From: Bacteroidales bacterium CF
GTDB lineage: Bacteria; Bacteroidota; Bacteroidia; Bacteroidales; UBA932
DNA length: 64,000 bases
Assembly: GCA_000473305.1 (NCBI GenBank)
Contig: CP006772.1
Location: 1,612,001 to 1,676,000, forward strand
Reading direction: 5' to 3'
Shown here: piece after piece, positions 30,485 through 63,856 of the stretch
How positions within the stretch are numbered: the stretch's first letter is position 1
Layout: each line of letters opens with the position of its first letter
Made by a program: the position numbers and the translations under genes
Notes under the pieces: generated by a model
The model's database searches: none
What the model saw: the letters and a program-made list of their open reading frames with translations, nothing else
What the model was told of the DNA's origin: nothing

Positions 30485-32143
30485 CTATTTTCCGAGAAAA
30501 AGTTTCATATCATCATCAACTGTTCCAATCGGAGCTATCCCGAAATTTTTCACCAGGACATTGGCAACGTTTGGTGAAAGGAAGCCCGGCAGTGTTGGCC
30601 CCAGATGTATATTCTTGACTCCCAAGGCAAGAAGAGCCAGGAGGACAATAACTGCCTTCTGCTCATACCAAGCAATATTGTATGCAATCGGAAGCTCATT
30701 GATATCGTTTGCATTGAAAATCTCTTTCAATTTAAGGGCTATCACTGCAAGAGAATATGAGTCATTACACTGTCCTGCATCCAAGACACGCGGAATACCA
30801 CCTATGTCCCCCAGAGGAAGCTTGTTGTACCTGTATTTCGCACACCCTGCAGTAAGTATGACTGTGTCTTTAGGAAGAGCTGCAGCGAAATCTGTATAGT
30901 AATTTCTGTCTTTCATCCTTCCGTCACAACCTGCCATTACAAAAAACTTGCGTATTGCCCCTGACTTGACAGCCTCGACAACTTTATCTGCAAGTGCGAA
31001 AACCTGAGCGTGTGCAAACCCTCCGATTATTTCTCCGGTCTCTATCTCTACAGGAGGCTGGCATCTTTTTGCATGCTCAATGATTTCAGAAAAATCTTTC
31101 TGACCATCCTTTACTCTGTCTGCGATATGCTTGAATCCCGGGAATCCTGATGCACCTGTGGTATATATCCTATCCTTGTAAGTAGAGTTCGGTCTCGGCG
31201 GCACAATACAGTTTGTAGTAAACAACACCGGTCCGTTAAAGGTCTCAAAGTCCTGTACCTGTCTCCACCATGAACTTCCGTAGTTACCGACAAAATGTTT
31301 GTACTTCTTGAAAGCCGGATAGTAATTTGCCGGGAGCATTTCAGAATGTGTATAAACATCAACTCCAGTATCTTCGGTCTGTTTGAGCAGATCCTCCATA
31401 TCTCTCAGGTCATGACCGGAGATAAGAATTCCAGGATTTTTTCCGACGCCGATATTAACTTTGGTAATCTCCGGATTGCCATATTTTGTTGTATTTGCCT
31501 TGTCAAGCAGAGCCATCACCTTTACACCATGGTTACCTGTCTCGAGTACAAGTGAGACCAAGGCATCTGCTGAGAGCGAATCATCAGTCACAGCCACGAG
31601 TGCCTTCTGCATAAATGCGTAGATCTCCGGATCTTCCATACCAAGATTGAATGCATGTTCGCCATAGGCAGCCATGCCTTTTAATCCATAGACTGTCAAC
31701 TCACGGAGAGAGCGTACATCTTCATTTTCAGTTGCCAGTACACCAACCTCAGCAGCCTTCTCCTCCATTGCCGCAATATCGTCTGAAGCCCAGAAAGCCC
31801 CGTCATACTTGATCTTCTCAATATCTCCGCCTTTTGAAACATAGAGAGACCTGATATTATCCCTTAAGACCAATGCCTCTCTTACCCTCTTTACAAAACG
31901 ATCCTTATCAAAATTGGCATTTGTAATAGTCATAAAGAGAGAATCAGTAATGAACTTGTTCACCTCAGCGCTCTCCACACCCATCTCCCTCAGAGGAACA
32001 GAGAAATGAGAGATTCCCTTGCAGAGGAAAACCAGTAAGTCCTGTAAGTTCGCAACATCTGCCGTCTTACCGCAGACACCTTGCACAGTGCAGCCCTGAT
32101 TTCTGGCTGTCTCCTGACATTGGAAACAAAACATCTTATTCAT
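30485..32143 (-). CDS. hcp: hydroxylamine reductase / hybrid cluster protein
   Basis: A 552-aa hybrid cluster protein. The N-terminal cysteines C6, C9, C18 and C24 have CX2CX8CX5C spacing, the pattern of anaerobe-type Hcp with a cubane [4Fe-4S] rather than the enterobacterial spacing. Hybrid-cluster ligands are visible in [29 protein letters not shown] and [16 protein letters not shown]. Hcp reduces nitric oxide or hydroxylamine and supports nitrosative-stress tolerance in anaerobes. It is divergent from a Crp/Fnr regulator, with a shared palindrome between them, so NO- or redox-responsive control is likely. Confidence 0.96.
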
Positions 32144-32170
32144 AATAAGTAATTTTAATTGTGATTTTTA

Positions 32171-32178
32171 CAAAGGTA
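32171..32178 (-). promoter_or_regulatory. hcp -7 promoter element
   Basis: CAAAGGTA on the + strand reads TACCTTTG on the - strand, 27 bp before the hcp start. The expected -33 position (about 32198-32201) has no TTTG and touches the palindrome at 32200, which would suit an activator-dependent promoter. Confidence 0.55.
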
Positions 32179-32199
32179 CCTATCTGTTATACGAAAAAG

Positions 32200-32215
32200 T
32201 GTAATAATTGTTACA
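32200..32215. promoter_or_regulatory. Crp/Fnr-type operator candidate between hcp and its regulator
   Basis: TGTAATAATTGTTACA is a near-perfect palindrome of the form TGTAA-N6-TTACA, 14 of 16 bases symmetric, the half-site spacing used by Crp/Fnr proteins. It overlaps the -33 positions of both divergent promoters, so one dimer could control hcp and the regulator gene together. Confidence 0.6.
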
Positions 32216-32230
32216 GAGATAAAATTGTTG

Positions 32231-32238
32231 TATTTTTG
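32231..32238 (+). promoter_or_regulatory. -7 element of the Crp/Fnr regulator gene
   Basis: TATTTTTG matches TAnnTTTG, with ATTG at 32207-32210 placed 20 bp upstream inside the palindrome. The ATG follows 20 bp later. Confidence 0.5.
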
Positions 32239-32258
32239 ATAAGAACATTTCTATAAGT

Positions 32259-32954
32259 ATGCAAATAAAAAACAATCAAGGAATTCCAAAGTTCAATTTT
32301 TTCGGAGAACTCTATGAAGATTATCAGTCAGCAATTCCCGAAGGGATAGAATACTCCATCAGAGAGTATGGTAAAAACGATGTGATTGCAAGACAGGGAG
32401 ACCTTTGCAAAGGTCTCTACATTCTTATTGAAGGCAGTGTCAGGACAGATATGATTGCTGAAAACGGAGCCATTCTGAATATTGAGACAATCTATGCCGT
32501 AACCCCGCTTGCCTCTGCTTTTATTTTTGCCACAACCAACGGGTTCCCTGTTGATGTGACAGCTCTTGAGAAGAGCAGGATTCTTTTCATGGCAAGAGAG
32601 CAGATTCTGAAAATGTTTCAGAAAGATCAGGAGTTATTGATGCGGTATTTAAGATATAATGCAGACAAGACCAAGTTCCTGTCGGATAAGATTCAGATGC
32701 TCTCGGTCAGGACAATAAAGGCAAAATTGGCCCACTACATCCTGGGACTTCACATGTCCGCACAACAGACAGACGGTGATAATTTCACTGTTGTCCTGGA
32801 TAAAAACCAGACAGAGCTTGCAGCCTTTTTTGGTGTGACAAGGCCGTCTCTTGCACGTGCATTAAGCGAAATGTCAAGAGACGGCCTTATTTCAATCAAT
32901 AAAAAGATGGTCCGCATCAGAAGCCTCAAAGGTCTGATGGAGGCCAGAGGGTAA
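32259..32954 (+). CDS. Crp/Fnr family transcriptional regulator
   Basis: A 231-aa regulator. The N-terminal cyclic-nucleotide-binding-like beta barrel (~residues 25-120) includes VIARQGDLCKGLYILIEGSV. A dimerisation helix follows, then the HTH_Crp domain (~150-225) with KNQTELAAFFGVTRPSLARAL as helix-turn-helix. It has only one Cys in the sensor domain (DLCKGL) and no N-terminal Fnr Cys cluster, so Fnr-like oxygen sensing is unlikely; HcpR-type NO sensing through haem is possible but unproven. Divergence from hcp suggests it controls hcp. Its stop is one base away from the stop of the hydrogenase operon on the other strand. Confidence 0.88.
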   Translation: MQIKNNQGIPKFNFFGELYEDYQSAIPEGIEYSIREYGKNDVIARQGDLCKGLYILIEGSVRTDMIAENGAILNIETIYAVTPLASAFIFATTNGFPVDVTALEKSRILFMAREQILKMFQKDQELLMRYLRYNADKTKFLSDKIQMLSVRTIKAKLAHYILGLHMSAQQTDGDNFTVVLDKNQTELAAFFGVTRPSLARALSEMSRDGLISINKKMVRIRSLKGLMEARG

Positions 32955-32955
32955 T

Positions 32956-33432
32956 CTATTCGTAACTGTCCAGAATCTCCTTTATCTTGGATGCTTCCAG
33001 ACGGCCATAAACCTTCTCCCCTATCAGCATAACCGGAGCCAGTCCGCATGCACCCACACAACGCAGGCAGTCAAGAGAGAACTTGCCATCTTCAGTTACT
33101 CCGCCCACTTTTATATTAAGCTGGCTTTTAAGTTCATCCAGTACCTTCTCGGCACCACGAACATAACATGCCGTACCCATGCATACAGAGATAGGGTATT
33201 TCCCCTTGGGAGTCATAGTGAAGAAAGAATAGAAAGAGACTACTCCGTACACCTTGGCAACGGAAATATTAAGTATTCTTGCAACTTCCCTCTGCACATC
33301 CTCTGGAAGGTATCCAAACTCCCGTTGTGCGCTGTAAAGAATCTTTATCAGGTTTCCCGGTTCATTCTTATAATATGTACAAATATCTGCTATTGTCTTT
33401 TTATGACACTCTTGTATTTTAAATGCGCCCAT
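32956..33432 (-). CDS. NADH:ferredoxin [FeFe]-hydrogenase subunit, NuoE-like (HndA/HydC)
   Basis: A 158-aa thioredoxin-like [2Fe-2S] protein of the NuoE/24-kDa family. The cluster cysteines lie in SVCMGTACYVRGAEKVLDEL and CLRCVGACGLAPVMLI. The N-terminal helical segment (LIKILYSAQREFGYLPEDVQ) is typical. It is the smallest subunit of trimeric or tetrameric bifurcating hydrogenases, passing electrons between NADH and the other Fe-S centres. It is the last gene of the operon, 6 bp after the catalytic subunit. Confidence 0.92.
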   Translation of the reverse strand: MGAFKIQECHKKTIADICTYYKNEPGNLIKILYSAQREFGYLPEDVQREVARILNISVAKVYGVVSFYSFFTMTPKGKYPISVCMGTACYVRGAEKVLDELKSQLNIKVGGVTEDGKFSLDCLRCVGACGLAPVMLIGEKVYGRLEASKIKEILDSYE

Positions 33433-33438
33433 GGTGAA

Positions 33439-35202
33439 TTATTTTTTGTTTTTTTCAAAGTAGTGAGTATGTAACAAATGGTGAGCCTTTTCACTCAAAG
33501 GATGACCCAGGAACTCCTCATACAGCTTCACTATATAAGGATTCTCGTGAGATTTACGGATCTTCTTGCCTGCATCCTCCCTGTATATAGCATCAAAACG
33601 GGCTTTTATAACATCCGAGTTACCATGATGCAACGGTTGACCGGCACCGCCGATACATCCACCGGGACAAGCCATGATCTCTATAGCGTGGAAATTGTAC
33701 AGACCTGCACGGATGCCGTCAAGAAGCTTGCGGGCATTACCGAGTTGATGAGCAATTCCTATATTGATCATAGTTCCGTTAAAATCAATTGAAGCAGTTC
33801 TTATGCCTTCAAGTCCCCTGAGTTCGGTAAAGTCTATCCTGTCAAGTTTCTTTTTGGTAAAGAGTTCATAAGCTGTACGTACAGCAGCCTCAATCACACC
33901 ACCAGTCGCACCGAAAATAACGGCAGCTCCGGTAGATTCTCCCAGAGGTGAGTCATAATCTTCATCTTCAAGAGAATTGAAATCGATGTTGGCAGCTTTA
34001 ATAAGGCTTGCAAGTTCCCTTGTGGAAATTGAGAAGTCTACATCAGGATTACCATTTGTCTTAAACTCATCTCTCTGACACTCGTATTTTTTAGCAAGGC
34101 AAGGCATCACGGAAACTACAACCAGATCCTCTCTCTTTATACCCAAAAGTTGTGTATAGTAATTCTTTGCAATTGAACCGAACATCTGTTGAGGAGATCG
34201 TGCTGTAGAAGGCACATCAAGCATATCCTGGTAATTGTTCTCAAAGAAGTTGACCCATGCAGGGCAGCACGATGTAAGGATAGGAAGTTTAACATCCTTG
34301 TCTCCTTCGAGGAATTTTGAGATCCTTCCCAGCAGTTCGGTACCCTCCTCCATAATTGTGAGGTCTGCTGCAAAATCTGTATCAAACACTTTGTCAAAGC
34401 CGAGAGTACGCAATGCCGAAACCATTTTACCTGTTACCAGAGTTCCTGGTTCCATACCGAACTCCTCGCCAAGAGCGGCACGAACTGCAGGAGCTGTCTG
34501 TACTATAACCGTCTTTGTAGGATCAGAAAGGGCTCTGATTACTTTTCCTGTGTCATCAAACGGTGTAAGAGCACCTGTAGGACATACTGCAACACACTGT
34601 CCGCAGAATGTACATGGAGAATCTATAAGGTCCTGCTCGAAAGCCGGTGCAACAACAGACATGAATCCGCGGTTGATTGCACTAAGCGCTCCCACTGACT
34701 GTACAGTATTGCAGATAGTCTCGCAACGGCGGCACATTATACATTTGTCCATATCCCTCCTTAGAGCAGGAGAGACATCCTTTCTATAAGTTGAAACGGC
34801 AGCGTTCTCAACAGCGTGAATTTCTCTAATGCCAAGAGTCTGGGACAGACTTTGCAGGTCACATTGTCCTGAAGATGAGCACACAAGACAATCCTTAGGG
34901 TGGTCTGAAAGTATCAGTTCCAAAACTGTCTTTCTTGCATTAAGTACCCTGATTGTGTGAGTTTTAACAACCATTCCGTTAGTACATTCGGTAGAACATG
35001 AGGGAGCAAGATTCTTTCTTCCGTCAACCTCAACAACACAAACCCTGCAGCCGCCCGGACGGTTTTCAATCTTAAGGTGGTCCAGGTTAAGATAACAAAG
35101 GGTTGGAATATGTATCCCGTTATCCTTTGCAGCCTTGTAGATAGTAGTGCCTTTTGAAACCTCTATCTCTTTCTTGTCTATAGTGATTTTGATTTTTTCC
35201 AT
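33439..35202 (-). CDS. [FeFe]-hydrogenase catalytic subunit (HndD/HydA type)
   Basis: A 587-aa enzyme. Domains in order: plant-type [2Fe-2S] (~residues 1-78, GGCRVCVVEV), His/Cys [4Fe-4S] (H101, C105, C108, C114), two [4Fe-4S] (C154-C164 and C197-C207), then the H-cluster domain. All active-site loops are intact: L1 LTSCCPAW (C312, C313), L2 MPCLAKKYE (C368) and L3 IMACPGGCIGGAGQP (C512, C516). It evolves or consumes H2. With NuoE/NuoF-like partners it should be an electron-bifurcating NADH/ferredoxin hydrogenase. The frame runs to 35289 into the neighbour; the ATG at 35202 (MEKIKITIDKKEIEV) leaves a normal 13-bp gap. The maturases HydEFG are not in the window. Confidence 0.95.
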   Translation of the reverse strand: MEKIKITIDKKEIEVSKGTTIYKAAKDNGIHIPTLCYLNLDHLKIENRPGGCRVCVVEVDGRKNLAPSCSTECTNGMVVKTHTIRVLNARKTVLELILSDHPKDCLVCSSSGQCDLQSLSQTLGIREIHAVENAAVSTYRKDVSPALRRDMDKCIMCRRCETICNTVQSVGALSAINRGFMSVVAPAFEQDLIDSPCTFCGQCVAVCPTGALTPFDDTGKVIRALSDPTKTVIVQTAPAVRAALGEEFGMEPGTLVTGKMVSALRTLGFDKVFDTDFAADLTIMEEGTELLGRISKFLEGDKDVKLPILTSCCPAWVNFFENNYQDMLDVPSTARSPQQMFGSIAKNYYTQLLGIKREDLVVVSVMPCLAKKYECQRDEFKTNGNPDVDFSISTRELASLIKAANIDFNSLEDEDYDSPLGESTGAAVIFGATGGVIEAAVRTAYELFTKKKLDRIDFTELRGLEGIRTASIDFNGTMINIGIAHQLGNARKLLDGIRAGLYNFHAIEIMACPGGCIGGAGQPLHHGNSDVIKARFDAIYREDAGKKIRKSHENPYIVKLYEEFLGHPLSEKAHHLLHTHYFEKNKK

Positions 35203-35215
35203 AACAGAGAATACA

Positions 35216-37015
35216 TTATTGAACATGAATTGCAGTAAACTTACACTTATCGTAGCATGCACCGCAACGGATACACTTGTCAGCGTCAATTACATGAGGC
35301 TGGCGTTTCTCACCTGAAATCGCTCCTACAGGGCAAGATCTTGAACAAGCAGTACAGCCTGTACACTTATCTGTAAGAATAGTGTAAAGTTTAAGTGCCT
35401 TACACTGACCGGCAGGACATATTCTCTCGGTAACGTGAGCCTTATACTCATCATAGAAGTGTTCAATAGTAGAGAGAACAGGGTTTGGAGATGTCTGTCC
35501 GAGACCACAGAGAGCTGTATCTTTTATAACAGCACCGAGGTTTTTGAGATATTCTACATCTTCGATAGTTCCCTTACCGCTGCATATCTTCTCAAGCATT
35601 TCATGTAAACGCTTGTTTCCGACACGGCATGGGGCACATTTGCCGCATGACTCGTCTACCGTAAACTCCAGATAGAATTTTGCAACTGAGACCATACAGT
35701 CGTCCTCGTCCATAACAATCATACCGCCTGAACCCATCATAGAACCGGCAGCAATCAGGTTGTCAAAATCGATAGGTGTGTCAAGGTGTTTCTCTGTCAG
35801 ACATCCGCCTGAAGGACCACCTGTCTGGACAGCTTTAAATTTCTTGCCGTCTTTTATACCACCGCCGATTTCAAAAATAACCTCTCTCAAGGTTGTTCCC
35901 ATAGGAACCTCGATAAGACCTACGTTATTGATTTTTCCTGCAAGGGCAAATACTTTTGTACCCTTTGACCTCTCTGTTCCAATGCTTGCAAACCACTCGG
36001 CACCTTTAAGAATTATGGCAGGAATATTTGCAAATGTCTCAACGTTATTTACATTGGTTGGTTTTCCAAGATAACCGCTTTGAGCCGGGAATGGTGGTTT
36101 TACGGTTGGCTCACCTCTGAGTCCCTCCATAGAGTGGATCAATGCTGTCTCTTCACCGCAAACGAATGCTCCGGCTCCGTATCTTAACTCGATGTCAAAA
36201 TCGAATCCTGAACCGAGAATGTCTGTCCCAAGAAGGCCATATTCACGACACTGCCTTGCTGCTATTTTCAAGCGTTGAATTGCAAGGGGGTACTCAGCAC
36301 GGATATAGACGATACCCTTAGTTGCACCTATACAGTAACCGCAGATCGCCATTGCCTCAATAATAGAGTGAGGGTCACCCTCAAGTATTGAACGGTCCAT
36401 GAATGCCCCCGGGTCTCCCTCATCGGCATTGCAGACTACATATTTCTGATCGGCTTTGTTGCCTGCTGCAATCTCCCACTTGAGACCTGTCGGGAATCCT
36501 CCGCCGCCCCTGCCTCTTAATCCCGATTTTTTGATTAAATCAATAACCTGCTGGTTGGTCATCTCTGTCAAAACCTTGCCCAGAGCTGCATATCCGTCTC
36601 GTGCTATATACTCGTCAATATTCTCAGGGTTGATGAATCCGCAATTCCTTAAAGCAATACGGATCTGCTTCTGATAGAACCCCATATGCTTTGAGTCTGC
36701 AATGTGTTCTTTTGTAGCAGGATCCTCGTAAAGCAGTCTTGTTACCTTTCTTCCCTTAAGCACGTGCTCGCTGATAATCTCCTTGCAATCCTCCGGCTTA
36801 ACCTGAGTATAGAAAGTATTATCCGGAATGATTTTTACTATAGGTCCCTTCTCACAAAAACCAAAACAACCGGTTATGACAACTTGTGCCTCATTCTCAA
36901 GACCGAGATTCTTTATCTCCTCTTTAAGATTACCGGCAATCTTCTCACTTTGTGATGCCCGGCAACCTGTTCCGCCGCAAACTAAAAGATGCATTTTATA
37001 CTGTGCCATATCCAT
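35216..37015 (-). CDS. NADH-binding hydrogenase subunit, NuoF-like (HndC/HydB)
   Basis: A 599-aa flavoprotein. An N-terminal thioredoxin-like [2Fe-2S] domain (CGGTGCRAS, GCFGFCEKGP) precedes the NuoF core, with FMN/NADH motifs GLRGRGGGGFPTGLKWE and GAGAFVCGEETALIHSMEG and the [4Fe-4S] motif ESCGKCAPCRVG. A C-terminal pair of [4Fe-4S] motifs (CTGCTACSRSCP, CIRCGACYDKCK) completes the HydB architecture. This subunit holds the FMN where NADH is oxidised or reduced; in HydABC-type enzymes it is tied to bifurcation. A second in-frame ATG (37009) is possible. The start abuts the stop of the HndB-like gene. Confidence 0.95.
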   Translation of the reverse strand: MDMAQYKMHLLVCGGTGCRASQSEKIAGNLKEEIKNLGLENEAQVVITGCFGFCEKGPIVKIIPDNTFYTQVKPEDCKEIISEHVLKGRKVTRLLYEDPATKEHIADSKHMGFYQKQIRIALRNCGFINPENIDEYIARDGYAALGKVLTEMTNQQVIDLIKKSGLRGRGGGGFPTGLKWEIAAGNKADQKYVVCNADEGDPGAFMDRSILEGDPHSIIEAMAICGYCIGATKGIVYIRAEYPLAIQRLKIAARQCREYGLLGTDILGSGFDFDIELRYGAGAFVCGEETALIHSMEGLRGEPTVKPPFPAQSGYLGKPTNVNNVETFANIPAIILKGAEWFASIGTERSKGTKVFALAGKINNVGLIEVPMGTTLREVIFEIGGGIKDGKKFKAVQTGGPSGGCLTEKHLDTPIDFDNLIAAGSMMGSGGMIVMDEDDCMVSVAKFYLEFTVDESCGKCAPCRVGNKRLHEMLEKICSGKGTIEDVEYLKNLGAVIKDTALCGLGQTSPNPVLSTIEHFYDEYKAHVTERICPAGQCKALKLYTILTDKCTGCTACSRSCPVGAISGEKRQPHVIDADKCIRCGACYDKCKFTAIHVQ

Positions 37016-37417
37016 CTATTTTTTTTCGTTTATGGTCTGGTAATTAACAGGAATGATACCTTCAAGGAGTTCACCTTTTCCGATATATCTCTCAATGATG
37101 TCAATTGCAACCTTTGAGTCAACATAGCCAAAAACAACAGGATCCTTGCCCGGAATCCTCACTTCAACTGTAGGTTCTGCATAACAGTATCCCATGCATC
37201 CACCCTGAGTTACTACCGCCTGTACTTTGTCTTTTTCAATCTTCTCGATAAGAGTGTTCATGACCGTTCTTGCTCCCGAAGCGATCCCACATGTTGCCAT
37301 AGCCACGCGTATCTGAACCAAAGACTCTGGCGAATTGCTCTTTTCACGGATATTCATCCCGCTCTCAAGATCTTGCTTCATCTTGCGCAAATCGTCAATT
37401 GATTTAATCTTGTTCAT
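37016..37417 (-). CDS. thioredoxin-like [2Fe-2S] protein, HndB-like
   Basis: A 133-aa protein with a thioredoxin-like [2Fe-2S] ferredoxin domain; the four cysteines are in MATCGIASGAR and TQGGCMGYCYAEP. It corresponds to HndB of tetrameric NAD(P)-reducing [FeFe]-hydrogenases, and in domain terms to the N-terminus of NuoF. It is the first gene of the hydrogenase structural operon, with a candidate promoter at 37460-37490, and abuts the NuoF-like gene with no gap. Its role in electron transfer is inferred from the family. Confidence 0.87.
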   Translation of the reverse strand: MNKIKSIDDLRKMKQDLESGMNIREKSNSPESLVQIRVAMATCGIASGARTVMNTLIEKIEKDKVQAVVTQGGCMGYCYAEPTVEVRIPGKDPVVFGYVDSKVAIDIIERYIGKGELLEGIIPVNYQTINEKK

Positions 37418-37459: not shown

Positions 37460-37490
37460 TAAAATTAGTAATAAATATATCAAAAACAAA
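37460..37490 (-). promoter_or_regulatory. candidate promoter of the hydrogenase structural operon
   Basis: On the - strand: TTTG (37487-37490), exactly 19 bp, then TAATTTTA (37460-37467), one mismatch to TAnnTTTG. The predicted start site is near 37453, giving a leader of about 36 nt to the HndB-like gene. Confidence 0.45.
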
Positions 37491-37491
37491 T

Positions 37492-37517
37492 AAATTTTAA
37501 CTTTTTAGTTAAAATTT
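37492..37517. repeat. 11-bp perfect inverted repeat at the sirtuin stop
   Basis: AAATTTTAACT (37492-37502) and AGTTAAAATTT (37507-37517) around TTTT. It spans the sirtuin stop codon and ends two bases from the TTTG of the hydrogenase promoter. It could be a weak terminator for the upstream cassette or an operator for the hydrogenase operon. Confidence 0.55.
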
Positions 37518-38212
37518 GTAATCATTTTGCCCGAAACTAGTTCATCGTATAACCTTGGTAAGCCGATAGCAGCTCTTTTGCAAATATACCTGACCCCTTT
37601 CAATTTAACTCTTAAAGGTGATGGGTCAACAAGATAGACAGGGACATTGTCCGGAATATTATAAATTAGCGATGCTGCCGGATAGACCTCCAGAGATGTT
37701 CCGACAACTATTAAAATATCAGCCTTCGACGCTATCTCTGATGCTTTTTCAAACATAGGGACCGGCTCTCCGAAAAATACTATGTGCGGTCTCAACTGAC
37801 CTCCGTCCGGGGCAAGATCGCCCACATGCAAATCATCATTAATATTGGCAATGTATGATGGGTCTTTCATGCTCCTGCATTTCATCAACTCTCCGTGGAG
37901 GTGCAGGACCCTGGAACTTCCGGCCCGTTCATGCAGGTCATCCACATTCTGAGTTATTACATCTACATCATAGAATTCTTCAAGCCTTGCAAGAGCTTTG
38001 TGACCCTCATTCGGTTCTGCGGATTTAAGCTGGTGCCTCCTCTTATTGTAAAAATCAAGCACCAGTTCAGGATTTCTTATAAGAGCCTCCGGTGTACAGA
38101 CATCTTCAACTCGATGTTTTGCCCACAGGCCGTCTGCATCGCGAAAAGTTTCCAGTCCGCTGTCGGCACTGATTCCTGCCCCAGAAAGCACGACAATGTG
38201 AGCTTTATTCAT
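37505..38212 (-). CDS. cobB: NAD-dependent protein deacylase (sirtuin, SIRT5-like)
   Basis: A 235-aa sirtuin. NAD-binding motifs are LSGAGISADSGLETFRD and ITQNVDDLHERAGS with catalytic His in HLHGEL, plus VVGTSLEVYPAA. The Tyr-x-x-Arg pair of class III enzymes, which prefer succinyl- or malonyl-lysine, is seen in LDFYNKRRHQL. The usual zinc-binding Cys tetrad is missing (one Cys only in ELMKCRSM); this appears common in Bacteroidota homologues. Its start overlaps the stop of the HATPase gene by 8 bp, so it is translationally coupled to the putative H2-sensing cassette and lies directly upstream of the hydrogenase operon. Confidence 0.92.
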   Translation of the reverse strand: MNKAHIVVLSGAGISADSGLETFRDADGLWAKHRVEDVCTPEALIRNPELVLDFYNKRRHQLKSAEPNEGHKALARLEEFYDVDVITQNVDDLHERAGSSRVLHLHGELMKCRSMKDPSYIANINDDLHVGDLAPDGGQLRPHIVFFGEPVPMFEKASEIASKADILIVVGTSLEVYPAASLIYNIPDNVPVYLVDPSPLRVKLKGVRYICKRAAIGLPRLYDELVSGKMITNFN

Positions 38213-38750
38213 CTCTCAGATCCTTGATGTTCTCTTTTATCATCTCCGTGAGAATCCTTATCACTGAGGCATCATTTAGCGGTGTCCCCTCCAGAGCCTC
38301 CTTTATCTCTATTGTGTCAAAAACATACTCTCCCCTGCCGATAATATACCGAAGAATGAAATCCTTTTCAGGGTTCGCCGATACTGTAAGGATAAAAGCA
38401 TTCGCAACATCACCCAGAGGAGGACGGTCTATATGGGACATTTTGAACCAAGCCCTCACATAAGTACCCACACCGACCTCTGATTTTATCTCAATACCTC
38501 CGCCACTCTGCTCTGCAGATTGTTTAAGGAGTGGAATGCCCATTCCTACTTTCCTTGTTGTCCTGGAGGTGAAGAATGGATCCGTAAGTCGTTCTACCTG
38601 CTCCTTGTTCATTCCACAACCATTATCCTCAATTATTATCTCGAGCCTGTCCGAAGGCCCGTCCTCCTCCACGGTCAGCTTTACAAGGATAGCCCCTGCA
38701 CTCAGTGAGTTCTGGATTATATCCAGTATATGCATCGCCAAATCATTCAT
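38205..38750 (-). CDS. HATPase-domain protein (histidine-kinase-like ATPase)
   Basis: A 181-aa protein whose N-terminal two thirds is a GHKL ATPase domain: N-box MHILDIIQNSLSAGA, G1 box IIIEDNGCGMNKEQ, F-box DPFFTSR and G2 box RKVGMGIPLL. No dimerisation/phosphoacceptor His domain, membrane segment or sensor is present. The C-terminal part (~residues 110-181) is a small uncharacterised domain. Such stand-alone kinases are found beside [FeFe]-hydrogenase genes in anaerobic Firmicutes and Thermotogae. It overlaps the PHP gene by 4 bp and the sirtuin by 8 bp. Substrate unknown. Confidence 0.85.
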   Translation of the reverse strand: MNDLAMHILDIIQNSLSAGAILVKLTVEEDGPSDRLEIIIEDNGCGMNKEQVERLTDPFFTSRTTRKVGMGIPLLKQSAEQSGGGIEIKSEVGVGTYVRAWFKMSHIDRPPLGDVANAFILTVSANPEKDFILRYIIGRGEYVFDTIEIKEALEGTPLNDASVIRILTEMIKENIKDLRDE

Positions 38751-39466
38751 AACAACACTTTATTATTTTTCAGGGCACCTTTAAGGAACTCGAAATTAGG
38801 TTTTTCTATATCAAAGAATGTAAAAATATCTCCAAAATCAGCGGGATAATGAGCATCAGAGGAGTGCAGGAAACAATACTCCTTTAACCAGCCGCATGCA
38901 CTTATCAAGCCGGGCAGATCCGCTCTCTTTGAGAGTTCTAAAGCATCAGCCTTAAGTCCGGGTGGCACGAATCCAAGCTGACTTATCAGGGAGTTTTGGG
39001 GTTTGTCTATGTGTGCAGGTATAAAAAGCCCGCCTATTGAATGTATGAACTCCTCTGTCTGATCTATCGACCTGTTTAGTGCACTTATCAAAAGGGTGGG
39101 TTCCTGATACAAAACCTCCTCCATTTCATTTACTACCAACTGGTATCCAAAGTACTCCTCGTTGTTCGGTATTTTGGGCAGATAGCTGTCAATCCACTCC
39201 TGCAAGAGCCCTCTCATAGAGTAATCAACCAGTGCAATGACATGAACCTCCTCTTTTGTCGTAATTTCGGCCCCGCACAAAACCTCAACGCCTTCCCTTT
39301 TGCCGATTCTTACCACCTCTTCGCATTGCCTTGTTGAATTGTGGTCAGTGATTGCAATAAGATCAAGCCCCTTCTCCTTAGCCCTTTGTACAATAAAAGA
39401 GGGGGTCATCTCAATGTCTCCGCATGGGGAGAGAATCGTATGTATGTGAAGGTCAGCCCTTATCAT
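38747..39466 (-). CDS. PHP-domain phosphoesterase
   Basis: A 239-aa PHP (polymerase and histidinol phosphatase) metal-dependent hydrolase. Motif I is RADLHIHTILSPCGD, motif II is IAITDHNSTRQ, and later metal ligands fall in GGLFIPAHIDKP and FLHSSDAHYPADFGDI. The family hydrolyses phosphoesters of small molecules or nucleotides. In this operon it may act on a signalling nucleotide or phosphoprotein, but that is inference. It overlaps genes on both sides by 4 bp (ATGA), showing translational coupling. Confidence 0.9.
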   Translation of the reverse strand: MIRADLHIHTILSPCGDIEMTPSFIVQRAKEKGLDLIAITDHNSTRQCEEVVRIGKREGVEVLCGAEITTKEEVHVIALVDYSMRGLLQEWIDSYLPKIPNNEEYFGYQLVVNEMEEVLYQEPTLLISALNRSIDQTEEFIHSIGGLFIPAHIDKPQNSLISQLGFVPPGLKADALELSKRADLPGLISACGWLKEYCFLHSSDAHYPADFGDIFTFFDIEKPNFEFLKGALKNNKVLL

Positions 39467-39795
39467 TTGAGTATATTGAACAGTTCTCCGGAGAGTTCAA
39501 ATGCCTCCAGATTACTACCCAATATAGGAATACCTTCCGCCAACGATGCCTCGATTGTATCGGCCTCAGGTTTAAAACCCTTAACGAGGATTATTGCTGC
39601 AAGATCTTTCAGAGTGGCTACTGCCATTACATTCTTGTGAGTCTGAAGGGTAATCCAGATTTGTCCCTCCCTTGCATGACCCATAACATCTGAGAGAAGG
39701 TCCGAGGTGTATCCCCCCTTGACAACCCTGTCAACACCTTCCGGAGCCGAAAAGATTTCCAGATTTAACTTTTCAATTACATCTTTTACTATCAT
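39463..39795 (-). CDS. DRTGG-domain protein (first copy)
   Basis: A 110-aa protein made of a single DRTGG domain: DVIEKLNLEIFSAPEGVDRVVKGGYTSDLLSDVMGHAREGQIWITL. DRTGG domains occur with CBS domains and in PTA-like or HPr-kinase-like proteins, and are thought to bind ligands; the stand-alone function is unknown. A second copy lies at 41557-41901 in the same operon. It overlaps the PHP gene by 4 bp and starts 9 bp after the sensory hydrogenase. Confidence 0.85.
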   Translation of the reverse strand: MIVKDVIEKLNLEIFSAPEGVDRVVKGGYTSDLLSDVMGHAREGQIWITLQTHKNVMAVATLKDLAAIILVKGFKPEADTIEASLAEGIPILGSNLEAFELSGELFNILK

Positions 39796-39804
39796 ATCGG
39801 GTAA

Positions 39805-41145
39805 TTAATAATTTCTCTTTACAAAACGATCCTTTCCCCAGATACTCTCCATAATATTAACAGCCTCTTCAAGAGAGAGTTCCCCCCTCTTTTCATATAG
39901 AGTTCTCAGGAATATACAGTCATTAATATCCGCCTGTCCCTTCACCACATCCTCGGACAAAGCCTCACAACTTGGAGCTCCGCATGCTCCGCAGTCAATA
40001 CCGGGAAAAAGTTTTCTAAGCTCTCTCGCCTTTTCCATCTTAATGATTGCCATGTCCAGATCCCTGTCATATTTCACCATTGAGCGCGGCTCAACCTTGT
40101 CCATGTGTATCACGGCAGAACAGTGCTTTTTGTAATCACTGACGAGTTCATGTACCCTACCCAGAGTAGAAGCGTATTTCCTCATGCTCTCCGCTATAAG
40201 GAAACGATTTCTATGAGAAAGGATTCCCCCGGCACAAGATTCATCACAAGCTCTCAGCTCAAGAAAATCAATTCCTTCAACCTCCTCATTCTCAAGTATC
40301 TCTAGAAATTCCACGACATTCTTCATCCCATCTATCGAAAGAGTCTTTCCCTCAATGTGTACCTCTTCTCCTCCGGTTGTCGGGAATAAAACCCCCTTGG
40401 AAGATATTGCGCCATTGACAAACACCTCTTTTGTAATTGGTATCCTTTGTTTATAAGCAAGATAGACCTTGTTATAAAAATAATCCATATTAATAACGCC
40501 GTTAATCGGAGATGTGTATCCACCGACAGGAGACTTAACAGCAGCAATTTTACCAATGCATGGGGTAAGATAAAAAATACCAAGGTCACTTTCAGCAACA
40601 CCCTTTTCTGCATATTTCCGCTTATAATACTGGGCAGTAATCTCTATTGGCGGAAGCAATCTCATTATGTTCTCAACAAGAGAGGGAAATCTGACCTGTA
40701 TAAGTCTTACCACGGCAGGACAAAATGATGAAATCACCGGTTTCACGGCATTTCTGACATATTCATTCTCCTCATCTATCAAAGAATCTATACTCTGCTC
40801 AACAGCACAAATTTCGGTAAAACCAAGCTCTCCAATAATTTCATTAATCTGCTTCTTGGTTATGTTGTCACTGAATTGTGCATAGAAAACAGATGGCACA
40901 AGCAATACGCGATGTTTATAGTTGAAAATCCGGCTGAAATCATCATCCATAACCCTTATTGCGCGGGTAGGGCACTCTCTGTAACACTCTCCACAGTCAA
41001 TACACCAGTCGACATGAATCTTTGCCTTTCCCTCAGACACTCTCAGTGCTTCTGTAGGACATACCTTCATACAATGTGAGCAACCGATGCAAATATCGTT
41101 GTCTATTTGAAGTGCTCTGTTGTATGTTGTCTGCTCCAGTTTCAT
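39805..41145 (-). CDS. putative sensory [FeFe]-hydrogenase (group C/D-like)
   Basis: A 446-aa protein: two N-terminal [4Fe-4S] motifs (CIGCSHCMKVCP, CIDCGECYRECP), a compact H-cluster domain, then a C-terminal 4-Cys Fe-S motif (C385, C388, C393, C410; DCGACGAPSCEAL). The four H-cluster cysteines are kept (C142, C196, C300, C304), but the loops differ from catalytic enzymes: SSFCPAVV instead of TSCCPAW, LTPCIGK instead of MPCxxK, and RACDESCAGG. The proton-relay Cys is replaced by Phe. Such enzymes are regarded as putative H2 or redox sensors. No PAS domain is present, which fits group D better than C. It is coupled to the RsbW-like gene by a 4-bp overlap. Confidence 0.88.
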   Translation of the reverse strand: MKLEQTTYNRALQIDNDICIGCSHCMKVCPTEALRVSEGKAKIHVDWCIDCGECYRECPTRAIRVMDDDFSRIFNYKHRVLLVPSVFYAQFSDNITKKQINEIIGELGFTEICAVEQSIDSLIDEENEYVRNAVKPVISSFCPAVVRLIQVRFPSLVENIMRLLPPIEITAQYYKRKYAEKGVAESDLGIFYLTPCIGKIAAVKSPVGGYTSPINGVINMDYFYNKVYLAYKQRIPITKEVFVNGAISSKGVLFPTTGGEEVHIEGKTLSIDGMKNVVEFLEILENEEVEGIDFLELRACDESCAGGILSHRNRFLIAESMRKYASTLGRVHELVSDYKKHCSAVIHMDKVEPRSMVKYDRDLDMAIIKMEKARELRKLFPGIDCGACGAPSCEALSEDVVKGQADINDCIFLRTLYEKRGELSLEEAVNIMESIWGKDRFVKRNY

Positions 41146-41555
41146 CTGAACTTTATCTCTATATTCAGGGAGGTTCCCTTACCTACTATGGTATCTATCG
41201 TAAAAACATCAGAGTTGTCACTTATATTAGGCAACCCCATTCCGGCACCAAAGCCCATCTCCCTTACCTCTTTCGATGCTGTGGAGAATCCCTTTGTCAT
41301 AGCCTTCTCCACATCCGGAATTCCGGGCCCCTCATCCTCTAGTTTCAACACAATCCCGGAACTGCTTATCTCTGCATCAATCTTTCCCCTGTATGCATGA
41401 GCCACAATGTTAACCTCCGCCTCATACAAAGCAACCACAACCCTTTTTATCACAGAAGGATCGATATTTAGTTGCTTCAGCACCCTCTTTATCTGCGATG
41501 AGGCACTTCCAGCATTAGAGAAATCACCGCCCTCTACATTAAACTCAAGATGCAT
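41142..41555 (-). CDS. RsbW-like ATP-binding protein (anti-sigma-type serine kinase fold)
   Basis: A 137-aa GHKL ATPase of the RsbW/SpoIIAB type. The N-box is VALYEAEVNIVAHAYRG, G1 is LKLEDEGPGIPDVEKAM, and the ATP lid is GFGAGMGLPNIS. RsbW proteins phosphorylate STAS antagonists or bind sigma factors; a STAS protein exists in this window (62603-63856) but is far away and in a different operon. Here the partner is more likely within the operon. The stop overlaps the start of the sensory hydrogenase by 4 bp. Confidence 0.87.
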   Translation of the reverse strand: MHLEFNVEGGDFSNAGSASSQIKRVLKQLNIDPSVIKRVVVALYEAEVNIVAHAYRGKIDAEISSSGIVLKLEDEGPGIPDVEKAMTKGFSTASKEVREMGFGAGMGLPNISDNSDVFTIDTIVGKGTSLNIEIKFR

Positions 41556-41556
41556 A

Positions 41557-41901
41557 TTAATATACAGGTTTTAAACCATTTGAATACAAAAGACCGGCAC
41601 ACCTGAACAATGAATACTGTGTGCATATTATCACTATATTGCTCTCCTCCGCAATCTCCAGCATGTCAGGAGTTACCTGCTTGTTGCGGCATACAATCAT
41701 ATATGGCACATCAGACATCTCTGCAGTACGCACGGACTGTATGTTGCAAAGCCCGGTCAACAAAATGAAATTCTGGATTTTTACTGTAAGCACATCACTC
41801 ATAAGATCAGAAGCAAAGGCATACTCTACTTCATCATCCAAACGCGACTCCCCTATTACGACAACACCTTCTATAAGTGAACATATTTCAGAGACTTTCA
41901 T
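41557..41901 (-). CDS. DRTGG-domain protein (second copy)
   Basis: A 114-aa single-domain protein resembling the copy at 39463-39795: MKVSEICSLIEGVVV...YAFASDLMSDVLTVKIQN. It shares the SDLLSDV/SDLMSDV core with the first copy but is diverged elsewhere, so the duplication is old. It is the first gene of the sensory cassette, 1 bp before the RsbW-like gene and 5 bp after the GNAT-like gene. Confidence 0.8.
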   Translation of the reverse strand: MKVSEICSLIEGVVVIGESRLDDEVEYAFASDLMSDVLTVKIQNFILLTGLCNIQSVRTAEMSDVPYMIVCRNKQVTPDMLEIAEESNIVIICTQYSLFRCAGLLYSNGLKPVY

Positions 41902-41906
41902 GTTTG

Positions 41907-43022
41907 TTAAAGATTTTTAATATAACACCTTCTCTTCATGTATGGTGCGTAATCATACCTTTCCCATACCTTAAACACAGTATTTTCCTCAGCCTGAGGA
42001 TTTGTGACAGCATATTTCAGGTCAAGTTCCTTGAAACGAGTAGCAAGGTAAGTATGTAACACCGATGATATGCCTGTGTTCTGCCACTCTTTTGCAGCAC
42101 CCATTATCATAAGGTCAATACTGTCATACTTTCTGAAACTCTTCAGAATATGATACCATCCGAACGGGAACATCTTACCTTTAGCCTTCTTCATAGCTTC
42201 AGACAAGCTTGGGAAACATACTGCAAATGCAGCTATTTTATCATTTTCGTCAAGAATAAGACATGTCAGCTCATCCTTCAACAAAGACATATACTCCCTG
42301 CCAATCTCCTCAACCTCAGCATTAGTAAGCGGAACAAAATTTGGTATATTCCTGAAACTTGTATTATAGCTTTCAAAAAAGTCAAAGAGCATCTTCTTGT
42401 TCTTTTTAAACTTTTCAACATCCACAATTCTCAGTTTATGCTTTTCAAGAAGCATTTCATTAATCCTCCTGAGTTTGTCCGGAACTCCGACATTCGCCTC
42501 CAGCTTTATCTGAATCCAGTCAAGCTGCTTCCCGTATCCCAGACGTTCAAGCATCTCACCATAGTACGGAAAGTTGTAGAGACAATTTGAAGGTGGCGTG
42601 TTCTCGAAACCCTCAATCAATATCCCCTGTCTGTACCATGTATTATACCCCAACGGACCATGTATCTCAGTCATACCTAGCGACATACCCCACTTTTCAA
42701 CCTTAGAGAGAAGTGATGACGCAACCTCAAAATTGTTTATAAAATCAAACCACCCGAATCTCACCCTTTTGTTAGACTGATACTCATTTGCCTTTGGGTT
42801 ATAAATACCGGCTATACGGCCTATAATCTCGTTTCTCTCCGAATATGCAAGCCATAGTTTTATCTGGCAATACTCCAGCGAGGGGCTCTTTGTCAAAGAG
42901 TGAATCTCCCCGTTGTCAAAAACAGGGACATATTGCTTGCAATTCTTGTACAGATTATGAGGGAAACGGACGAATGCCCTGATTTGAGCATCGGTTACAG
43001 CCTCACGGATTTCAACTTTCAT
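41907..43022 (-). CDS. GNAT-like acyltransferase of unknown substrate
   Basis: A 371-aa cytoplasmic protein resembling a conserved Bacteroidota family with a GNAT-like fold. An N-terminal half (REAVTDAQIRAFVRFPHNLY, LWLAYSERNEIIGRIAGIYN, FINNFEVASSLLSKVEKWG) is followed by a second acyltransferase-like half (LILDENDKIAAFAVCFPSLS, GISSVLHTYLATRFKELDLKYAVTNPQAEEN). I cannot name the substrate. It is followed after 5 bp by the DRTGG protein and so may be co-transcribed with the H2-sensing cassette; a sirtuin lies in the same run, raising the idea of an acylation/deacylation pair. Confidence 0.65.
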   Translation of the reverse strand: MKVEIREAVTDAQIRAFVRFPHNLYKNCKQYVPVFDNGEIHSLTKSPSLEYCQIKLWLAYSERNEIIGRIAGIYNPKANEYQSNKRVRFGWFDFINNFEVASSLLSKVEKWGMSLGMTEIHGPLGYNTWYRQGILIEGFENTPPSNCLYNFPYYGEMLERLGYGKQLDWIQIKLEANVGVPDKLRRINEMLLEKHKLRIVDVEKFKKNKKMLFDFFESYNTSFRNIPNFVPLTNAEVEEIGREYMSLLKDELTCLILDENDKIAAFAVCFPSLSEAMKKAKGKMFPFGWYHILKSFRKYDSIDLMIMGAAKEWQNTGISSVLHTYLATRFKELDLKYAVTNPQAEENTVFKVWERYDYAPYMKRRCYIKNL

Positions 43023-62618: not shown

Positions 62619-63856
62619 ACATAATCCGCGAAGAGAGACCGGGCTACATCATTTTCAGGCTTGAAGGCCGTATAGATGCATACTGGTCAAAATACCTGGA
62701 CGAGGCTCTCGATAATGCCTTCAGAGAGAGGGAATACAACATAGCTCTCGATATGGGCAATATTGAATATCTGAGCTCACTGGGAATCAGATCGCTCATC
62801 AAGTATGCCAAGATGGCTAAAGGTGTAAACGGGATTTTCGGAATCTCAGCCCTTTCAAAAGAGGTACAGACAGTCCTCGAGATGGTGGGACTTGCCGGTA
62901 TGCTGGAATGGAAAGCCCCCGCCTCAAATGAGGACAAAGCCGAAGAGAGCACTCTGGAATTCGAGAGTGATGGATTTTTATTCAAGGCTGTAGAGATCAA
63001 AGGAAAAGAAAACGGCACATTCAAATGCACGTTAAACGGAGATCCGGAAGGAATCAAAAAAGGGTTCACCCAAAAGGATTGTATTTCAGCCAAATTCGGC
63101 AGCGGAAAATATGGTCTGGGACTCGGTGCAATCGGCTCAGGTTTTGAGGATTGCCAATCCAGGTTCGGAGAGTATATTGCATTGGGCGATGCAGTTGCAT
63201 TCATGCCGTCCGGCGATGTCAACACCCCGGACTTTATGATTACAGAGGGCAACCTGATTCCTTCAATCAACATGTTGTATGGTATTTCGCTCGAGGGCAG
63301 CTTCAGCAGGTTTATAAAATTCGCACCATCCGAAAACAAAAAAAGCATCCCGTTAAGCAAAATAATAAGGGCTGTTGCAGCAAACACAGGATTCAAAGAG
63401 TTTGCAATGGTTATGATGGCTGAGAGTAAGGGAATGGTCGGGGTTGCGCTGAAGCGTTCACCTGTAACTATAGGAAACAATGAGATATTCTCTTTTCCGC
63501 AGATTAAAGACAACCTCAATCTGACAACCGAACCTGAATACACAGGCGATATATCCCTAAGTCTGAGTATAATAACATCCGGCGAAGATACTCCTCTGAA
63601 AAAGTTTACAAGAGAATCAGCCCCGGATCGTGATAACCCGGAAAAGTTAAGGCACCACACCCACTCCGCAATATTCGGATACAAACCAATTGCCAAATCA
63701 CAGATTGGTGCAGAAGAGGCAATTAAAAACCTGTTTGACGAGGAGAGACTCGGGAGCGTCATGCATCTGCTGAACGACAGGAGAGATGCAACCGGTGCCG
63801 GAGAGAGCGAATTCACTCAAGGTGTCTGCTGGATAGGAAAAATTGATAAATTTTAA
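62603..63856 (+). CDS. STAS-domain protein with unknown C-terminal domain
   Basis: A 417-aa cytoplasmic protein. Residues 1-105 are a STAS (anti-sigma antagonist) domain: FRLEGRIDAYWSKYLDEALD, YNIALDMGNIEYLSSLGIRS with the phosphorylatable Ser after the LSS turn. Residues ~115-417 form a second, mixed alpha/beta domain that I cannot place (FGSGKYGLGLGAIGSGFEDC, GDAVAFMPSGDVNTPDF). It lies inside an ABC importer operon, overlapping the binding protein by 16 bp and ending 12 bp before the permease. It may regulate transport or sense occupancy; RsbW-like kinases elsewhere in the window could in principle act on it. Confidence 0.8.
   Translation: MDGKLNIIREERPGYIIFRLEGRIDAYWSKYLDEALDNAFREREYNIALDMGNIEYLSSLGIRSLIKYAKMAKGVNGIFGISALSKEVQTVLEMVGLAGMLEWKAPASNEDKAEESTLEFESDGFLFKAVEIKGKENGTFKCTLNGDPEGIKKGFTQKDCISAKFGSGKYGLGLGAIGSGFEDCQSRFGEYIALGDAVAFMPSGDVNTPDFMITEGNLIPSINMLYGISLEGSFSRFIKFAPSENKKSIPLSKIIRAVAANTGFKEFAMVMMAESKGMVGVALKRSPVTIGNNEIFSFPQIKDNLNLTTEPEYTGDISLSLSIITSGEDTPLKKFTRESAPDRDNPEKLRHHTHSAIFGYKPIAKSQIGAEEAIKNLFDEERLGSVMHLLNDRRDATGAGESEFTQGVCWIGKIDKF

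Follow-up and report, generated by a model that had tools for sequence, protein, structure and literature searches.

A HydS-centred gene cassette beside a trimeric [FeFe]-hydrogenase operon in Bacteroidales: a putative H2- or redox-responsive phospho-switch

The stretch of DNA analysed here (the window, 64,000 nucleotides, positions 1,612,001 to 1,676,000 of contig CP006772.1) comes from Bacteroidales bacterium CF, whose genome is one contig of 2.66 Mb. On its minus strand, at 37505-41901, lies a cassette of seven genes built around HydS, a putative sensory [FeFe]-hydrogenase, and next to it an operon for the trimeric hydrogenase HydABC. We lean, if only slightly, towards reading the cassette as a group D HydS signalling module, a phospho-switch that responds to H2 or redox state and controls HydABC. 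The reading draws on gene content and order that recur in relatives, on the co-occurrence of HydS with one type of HydA, on intact catalytic and ligand residues, on gene fusions, and on the proximity of a phosphatase gene in some relatives. H2 handling by Bacteroidales matters for the fermentation balance in guts and digesters.

A sequence-only reading of the window had described seven overlapping or abutting minus-strand genes here, and all seven open reading frames (ORFs) are present at the bounds it gave (aa, amino acids):

41557-41901, minus: DRTGG1, 114-aa DRTGG/HprK-N-like protein that opens the core triad (Hpr_kinase_N 1.4e-05, DRTGG 0.0014)
41142-41555, minus: RsbW/SpoIIAB-like GHKL kinase, 137 aa (HATPase_c_2 2.2e-11)
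39805-41145, minus: HydS, group D (M2e) putative sensory [FeFe]-hydrogenase (Fe_hyd_lg_C 4.7e-21, FeS 4.4e-13)
39463-39795, minus: DRTGG2, second DRTGG-like protein, 110 aa (Hpr_kinase_N 2.9e-05, DRTGG 0.00017)
38747-39466, minus: PHP metallo-phosphoesterase, 239 aa (PHP 7.4e-11)
38205-38750, minus: HATPase2, 181-aa GHKL ATPase extended at its C-terminus by about 70 residues (HATPase_c 8.6e-17)
37505-38212, minus: Sir2/CobB-type deacylase (SIR2 1.5e-42)

The overlaps claimed in that reading are also there: 4 bp each at RsbW/HydS, DRTGG2/PHP and PHP/HATPase, and 8 bp at HATPase/Sir2. At the remaining two junctions the genes are separated, DRTGG1 and RsbW by 1 bp and HydS and DRTGG2 by 9 bp. Its family labels agree with Pfam scans. 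Both DRTGG calls score low (18.9 and 21.8 bits, below the Pfam cut-off of 25.2; Hpr_kinase_N 25.5 and 24.5 against a cut-off of 24), yet the pair is kept in relatives.

Conservation of the cassette and its association with HydA

Loci for comparison were collected by a contig search with the HydS alignment alone, and the best 80 of 572 confirmed relatives were taken: 67 from Bacteroidota, among which L093 is counted with no phylum in its record, and 13 from Bacillota. Profiles of the window proteins were run over these 80 loci, and the counts cover only those with enough flank. The order DRTGG1-RsbW-HydS is present in 64/64 testable Bacteroidota loci and in 12 of the 13 Bacillota loci (the miss is L107). 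Because the loci were fetched by HydS alone, its recurrence in every testable Bacteroidota locus places the gene order beyond chance, and the neighbourhood comparison that the sequence-only reading had proposed thus finds the partners conserved. HydS-DRTGG2-PHP follows in 59 of 62 Bacteroidota and 9 of 10 Bacillota loci (misses L056, L069, L073 and L107); L069 carries DRTGG2-PHP-HATPase2 on the opposite side. HATPase2 lies within 6 kb in 42/48 Bacteroidota and 5/8 Bacillota loci, and HydB in 41/48 and 6/8, respectively. Two HATPases in one Bacteroidota cassette, which had been put forward as possibly new, are the usual state among the Bacteroidota loci.

Among closer relatives, a strong HydS match is found in 24/24 genomes of the genus (one cut by a contig end), 4/11 of the family and 7/24 of the order. 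In a sample of the phylum, 5 of 395 genomes have HydS, and three of them, from outside the order, carry DRTGG1-RsbW-HydS-DRTGG2-PHP-HATPase2. Fusions also join the partners: DRTGG1 is fused with the RsbW-like kinase in L113 and L114, and PHP with HATPase2 in L098. L113 and L114 are mini-cassettes, in which the DRTGG-RsbW fusion and a divergent HydS lie near NuoE-HydB genes; a further DRTGG hit falls in the same frame region.

The sequence-only reading placed a catalytic HndBCDA-like operon immediately downstream. The operon is present, in the order HydC/HndB-like, HydB, HydA, NuoE, but it is not contiguous with the cassette: it starts 87 bp away, across AT-rich DNA and without overlap. Its parts are:

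37460-37490, minus: promoter-like element found by eye, TTTG (37490-37487), 19 bases, then TAATTTTA (37467-37460)
37016-37417, minus: 133-aa HydC/HndB-like [2Fe-2S] protein of thioredoxin fold, whose gene opens the operon (2Fe-2S_thioredx 0.029, weak; place conserved)
35216-37015, minus: HydB, NuoF-like diaphorase subunit, 599 aa (nuoF_fam 1.7e-146; 487.8 bits, below the cut-off of 558.65)
33439-35202, minus: HydA, catalytic [FeFe]-hydrogenase subunit, 587 aa (NF040763; 883.8 bits, above the cut-off of 765)
32956-33432, minus: NuoE-like subunit, 158 aa (PRK07539.1-2; 145.7 bits, above the cut-off of 141)

The subunits of a trimeric hydrogenase are thus encoded, and HydA falls in the NCBIfam family "NADH-dependent [FeFe] hydrogenase, group A6"; electron bifurcation is putative. 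The element at 37460-37490 resembles TTTG/TAnnTTTG, which we take to be the Bacteroidota promoter consensus, and similar elements precede HydC in the genus alignment (by eye). As the operon appears to have a promoter of its own, a single shared transcript is not needed.

Co-occurrence was counted in 247 genomes of the order, with HydS called strong at E <=1e-130 and HydA assigned to the neighbour's type (type I) at E <=1e-250 and at least 64% identity. Strong HydS (70 genomes) and type-I HydA (96 genomes) occur together in 68 genomes, HydS alone in 2, type-I HydA alone in 28 and neither in 149 (Fisher p 3e-35, without correction for kinship). Strong HydS is found in none of the 59 genomes with only the other HydA type, two of which (G193, G118) have a weaker HydS. 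The coupling to a catalytic hydrogenase that the sequence-only reading assumed is seen as a strong co-occurrence with one trimeric type (68/70); control of that enzyme by the cassette is putative.

For the other side of the comparison, loci were taken from 20 of the 28 genomes that have type-I HydA but lack strong HydS. HydB, HydA and NuoE are present in 20/20 and HydC was called in 16, and in 19/20 the DRTGG, RsbW and PHP genes are absent. L145 keeps DRTGG2 and HATPase2, and weak HATPase2 hits (99-123 bits) occur in L136, L140, L144 and L146. In a HydA tree of 87 rows, built by a quick method, 13 changes of the cassette label are counted, of which at least 8 fall on starred branches, so the block seems to have been gained or lost repeatedly.

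HydS and its partner proteins

HydS starts with two [4Fe-4S] sites, followed by an H-domain and, towards the C-terminus, an FeS domain, shortly after which the protein ends (residue 446); a Pfam scan at E 0.1 gave no PAS domain. Its AlphaFold2 model (47 sequences) has a mean pLDDT of 93.4 and matches solved [FeFe]-hydrogenases. The H-cluster cysteines C142, C196, C300 and C304 are present in 114/114 alignment rows, the ferredoxin cysteines in 98-100%, C385, C388 and C393 of the C-terminal site in 100% and C410 in 99%. This set excludes HydS of less than 380 aa or 300 bits and the short loci of relatives, and retains near-copies and at least one duplicate genome (L076 = L117). The earlier label "non-catalytic" was too strong, given these cysteines and the behaviour of TamHydS, the group D protein of Thermoanaerobacter mathranii, which is slow yet active and turns over H2 in the published text available (PMC10407848).

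A tree of 52 rows puts all 30 HydS into a single clade (100/100) and keeps them separate from group C (99/91) and group A (100/100). The clade joins 13 Bacillota HydS and the two mini-cassette HydS, with 15 Bacteroidota HydS on one side of a branch (100/100). A long-branch warning concerns rows other than HydS, and the Bacillota rows are labelled by homology, without a named M2e reference. We file HydS under group D (M2e) as a putative sensory [FeFe]-hydrogenase. The proton path reported for the group, S249/E252/D265/E289 (PMC10407848, in part), corresponds to T257/E260/D272/E296 in the window HydS, a match that rests on the published residue numbers, TamHydS being outside the alignment. Among 101 Bacteroidota rows the four places keep T/S in 96, E in 99, D in 99 and E in 101, and a Bacillota HydS (L100) has all four at the published numbers. 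Like TamHydS, Cthe_0335, Csac_1857, Athe_1292 and Cphy_3798, as far as these are described in accessible text, HydS lacks PAS and has a C-terminal [4Fe-4S] site.

The H-cluster pocket differs within the group. Where catalytic enzymes have Cys299, Met353 and Met497, TamHydS has Ala, Ser and Leu (PMC8163306, PMC10407848, the parts accessible), and the 13 Bacillota rows mostly agree (Ala 12; Ser/Thr 7/6; Leu 9). The window HydS does not follow this pattern; it has Phe, Thr and Arg, and among 101 non-Bacillota rows the places hold Phe in 87 and Tyr in 14, Thr in 98, and Arg in 98. As Ala/Ser/Leu describe TamHydS and do not define the group in these sources, the filing is kept, as a variant. The Bacteroidota HydS thus look like a chemically distinct branch, and their pocket offers a natural set of second-sphere changes at the H-cluster. 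No mention of a Phe/Tyr, Thr, Arg pocket was found in the accessible portion of the group D literature.

The RsbW-like protein is closest, among solved chains, to the anti-sigma F factor SpoIIAB (residues 1-132), and its GHKL residues E45, N49, D74, G76, G78 and G101-G107 are kept at 99-100% (114 rows). Its score against the NCBIfam family spIIAB is 52.5 bits, below the cut-off of 135, and the ORF list and domain scans gave no STAS or sigma gene among the cassette genes. We take it that the protein works like a SpoIIAB/RsbW anti-sigma kinase, without filing it as one. S35, T49 and T59 are invariant in DRTGG1 (111/111 rows), and S35 and T49 in DRTGG2 (108/108); the two residues common to both are candidates for phosphorylation, no more. 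DRTGG2 gave no match to solved structures at E 0.1. In PHP the metal residues D5, H7, H9, D41, H42, E67, H75, H152, D204 and H206 are at 100% (101 rows). The HATPase2 model (pLDDT 92) is structurally closest to topoisomerase VI-B, MutL/PMS2 and histidine-kinase ATPase domains; a fold search with its extension yielded general GHKL matches and no function.

The proposed switch and competing explanations

In the reading we favour, HydS would bind an H-cluster and respond to H2 or to the redox state of its electron carriers, and its own state would be passed to the SpoIIAB/RsbW-type serine kinase. As client of the kinase, a DRTGG protein would take the part played by a STAS protein in classical partner switching. 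A second tier of the pathway may consist of DRTGG2, PHP and HATPase2. The output would be the amount or the activity of the adjoining HydC-HydB-HydA-NuoE set, by control that might be positive or negative and might act on transcription or on the enzyme. In some relatives, a PAS-type partner together with a SpoIIE-type phosphatase would oppose the kinase.

Several known systems resemble this scheme in part. A regulatory link between group D HydS and trimeric hydrogenases was proposed for Firmicutes (PMC3561251, PMC8163306). In the 2012 account, as accessible, group D hydrogenases lie near trimeric hydrogenases with intervening kinase genes, as here, and may regulate them (PMC3561251). In six of the 13 Bacillota loci (L100, L101, L102, L104, L106, L108) NuoE and HATPase2 precede HydC, with HATPase2 between them, an order that agrees with the numbering of Cthe_0335, Cthe_0339 (histidine kinase) and Cthe_0340-0342 in the excerpts available (PMC3561251, PMC3990059). 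Compared with Bacillota group D, NuoE here follows HydA and does not precede HATPase2, no AraC gene is seen in the cassette, and the pocket is Phe/Tyr, Thr, Arg instead of Ala, Ser/Thr, Leu. The cassette kinase resembles SpoIIAB/RsbW along almost its entire sequence, and a SpoIIE-type phosphatase is near in some relatives; unlike in partner switching, sigma and STAS genes are missing and DRTGG proteins stand in the antagonist's place. In the regulatory [NiFe]-hydrogenase with HoxJ/HoxA (PMC5707799), a slow hydrogenase also reports H2 to a kinase-type partner, but the enzyme family is unrelated, and the kinase and the output are different.

The PAS-type HydS of group C (M2f; HfsB/HfsA, R. albus HydS) are likewise putative H2 sensors beside other hydrogenases. 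They differ from group D in forming a separate clade and in being found here with a phosphatase, not a kinase. The own genome has a locus of this kind (L112, 1879000-1897000), with a 585-aa group C-like HydS that gave a weak PAS match (PAS_8, E 0.02), a 399-aa SpoIIE and a 475-aa group B-like monomeric hydrogenase. In Bacillota L107 a group D and a group C HydS stand in tandem. We drew no conclusion from a screen of the 247 genomes with the own-genome group C query (31 hits), because this query is divergent and its hits miss G078 and G099, both of which have group C proteins beside the cassette.

A SpoIIE-type phosphatase adjoins the cassette in nine of the 67 Bacteroidota loci (L055, L058, L059, L061, L062, L084, L086, L094, L096), in three arrangements overall, and also in L116 and L126. 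Its partner is a group C-type HydS or, in L084, L086, L094 and L096, a protein of 308-315 aa, which is PAS-only in the two that were scanned (L084, L096). Of 57 loci with 4 kb of upstream sequence, 8 have the phosphatase against about 0.4% expected, an expectation taken from eight of nine counted genomes (G071 left out; 1 to 8 such genes each), most of them picked for having the pairing, and few lineages contribute to the eight loci. The phosphatase also stands beside type-I hydABC without a cassette in 7/20 loci, and the partner in L147 is PAS-only.

An extension of the switch is more doubtful, and we hold it tentatively, as improbable in full. Two H-cluster proteins would set one STAS-free switch: group D HydS would gate the kinase on the DRTGG client and group C or PAS-only partners would gate SpoIIE on the same client. 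In Bacteroidota, the Arg and the aromatic residue by the H-cluster would tune HydS.

A number of observations weigh against the favoured reading. Two of the 70 HydS genomes (G036, G099) have no detected type-I HydA, G099 carrying a cassette (L116) with HydC-HydB-NuoE from which HydA is missing between HydB and NuoE. Strong HydS is absent from 28 of the 96 type-I HydA genomes, of which G225 has a HydS fragment, and the co-occurrence counts are uncorrected for phylogeny. The phosphatase pairing is confined to few lineages, and the phosphatase adjoins hydABC even where no DRTGG client remains. There is no DNA-binding output gene in the cassette, and 102 HydC upstream regions (79 with the cassette) gave no common palindrome or convincing word; some members of the genus show, by eye, a TAACAA/TTGTTA-like element. 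Cthe_0335, the HydS gene of C. thermocellum, does not share the expression pattern that the other FeFe hydrogenases show over the growth phases (PMC3478167, in part), which argues against simple co-expression there. Elsewhere the window's genome encodes a second RsbW-type protein and one small STAS protein, which could be the client of the cassette kinase in place of DRTGG. Within the window, a STAS domain match (62621-62905) lies inside a 419-aa open frame.

Of the rival explanations, the one that survives best, though we judge it unlikely, is that the target of the cassette is the HydABC protein, which it would assemble, repair or covalently modify with the use of ATP, with no relay to transcription. 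It would account for the want of a transcription factor and of a shared operator, and for HATPase2 between NuoE and HydC in 6/13 Bacillota loci. Full-length HydB and HydC, too, are found in 22/22 cassette operons first inspected and in 66/67 of a wider set (the exception, L177, is a short contig) against 7/20 without the cassette. However, this architecture was rejected as a cassette-linked trait, since the phylogeny-corrected test, which also counts against the favoured reading, is not significant (8 starred pairs, 3.8 the same way, 1.0 opposite, median p 0.375). Hydrogenase assembly does not need the cassette, because 19/20 type-I operons from genomes without strong HydS keep HydB, HydA and NuoE without adjoining DRTGG, RsbW or PHP. 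GHKL kinase, SpoIIE and PAS partners are, moreover, typical of signalling. The type-I operons L130, L134, L136, L138, L143, L144, L146 and L147, without strong HydS, have a HydB that lacks the N-terminal 110 residues.

We give distinctly less credence to the idea that the cassette is directed at something else, for instance redox enzymes elsewhere or a general stress switch that runs through the genome's STAS protein, and came to lie beside hydABC through shared transfer only. Cassettes away from hydABC (Parabacteroides L060, L068, L074, L076; also L069), the differing expression of HydS and HydABC in C. thermocellum (PMC3478167, as accessible), and the small STAS protein and second RsbW in the genome speak for it. 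But all ten genomes whose cassette locus lacks visible hydABC (L060, L065, L068, L069, L073, L074, L076, L103, L105, L107; some end early) have HydA elsewhere, 63-72% identical in the seven Bacteroidota, and 68 of the 70 strong-HydS genomes have type-I HydA. The search for HydA elsewhere covered 14 genomes, the other four of which carry it in the locus. About as unlikely is that HydS senses nothing and works as a slow hydrogenase of metabolism or in electron transfer, its neighbours being accessory: conserved H-cluster, [4Fe-4S] cysteines and group D proton-path residues and the H2 turnover of TamHydS (PMC10407848, in part) would fit, whereas the near-invariant linkage to a kinase-fold protein and the replacement of all three of Cys299, Met353 and Met497 do not.

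On how group D HydS pass on their signal, the phospho-switch reading brings testable protein pairs, named by the triad, the fusions and the phosphatase neighbours. A 2026 paper on TamHydS calls the identification of interaction partners critical (PMC13104023, in the part available). The open-access literature, as far as accessible, yielded no paper on partners of group D HydS, and DRTGG with hydrogenase gave a single, unrelated paper. As far as that literature shows, four findings are new: the Bacteroidales spread, the pocket, the gene fusions and the pairing with a phosphatase.

The sirtuin and the flanking genes

The sequence-only reading had counted the sirtuin as part of the system. It is limited to the window's genus: only 4/67 Bacteroidota loci have it, all four of that genus, and no other lineage does. 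Within the genus, 23 relatives have a readable cassette end, and in 18 of them, as in the window, the sirtuin gene stands there; among the five without it there, G004 has a Sir2 elsewhere and G007, G008, G015 and G016 gave no match. The cassette Sir2 is the only one found in the genome, and zinc-ribbon CxxC pairs are absent from 19/19 genus copies. We treat the sirtuin as a genus-level addition and a passenger.

Upstream of the cassette lies one further gene:

41907-43022, minus: 371-aa protein, 5 bp from DRTGG1 (no Pfam family over the cut-off)

The genus, the family member G035 and L041-L043 have the protein at this position. It may share the transcription unit, and its membership of the system is doubtful.

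Beyond nuoE, at 30485-32954, a gene read by eye as hydroxylamine reductase (Hcp) is divergent from a Crp/Fnr-type regulator (32259-32954, Pfam), which terminates 1 bp from nuoE. The two are presumably an HcpR-type pair.

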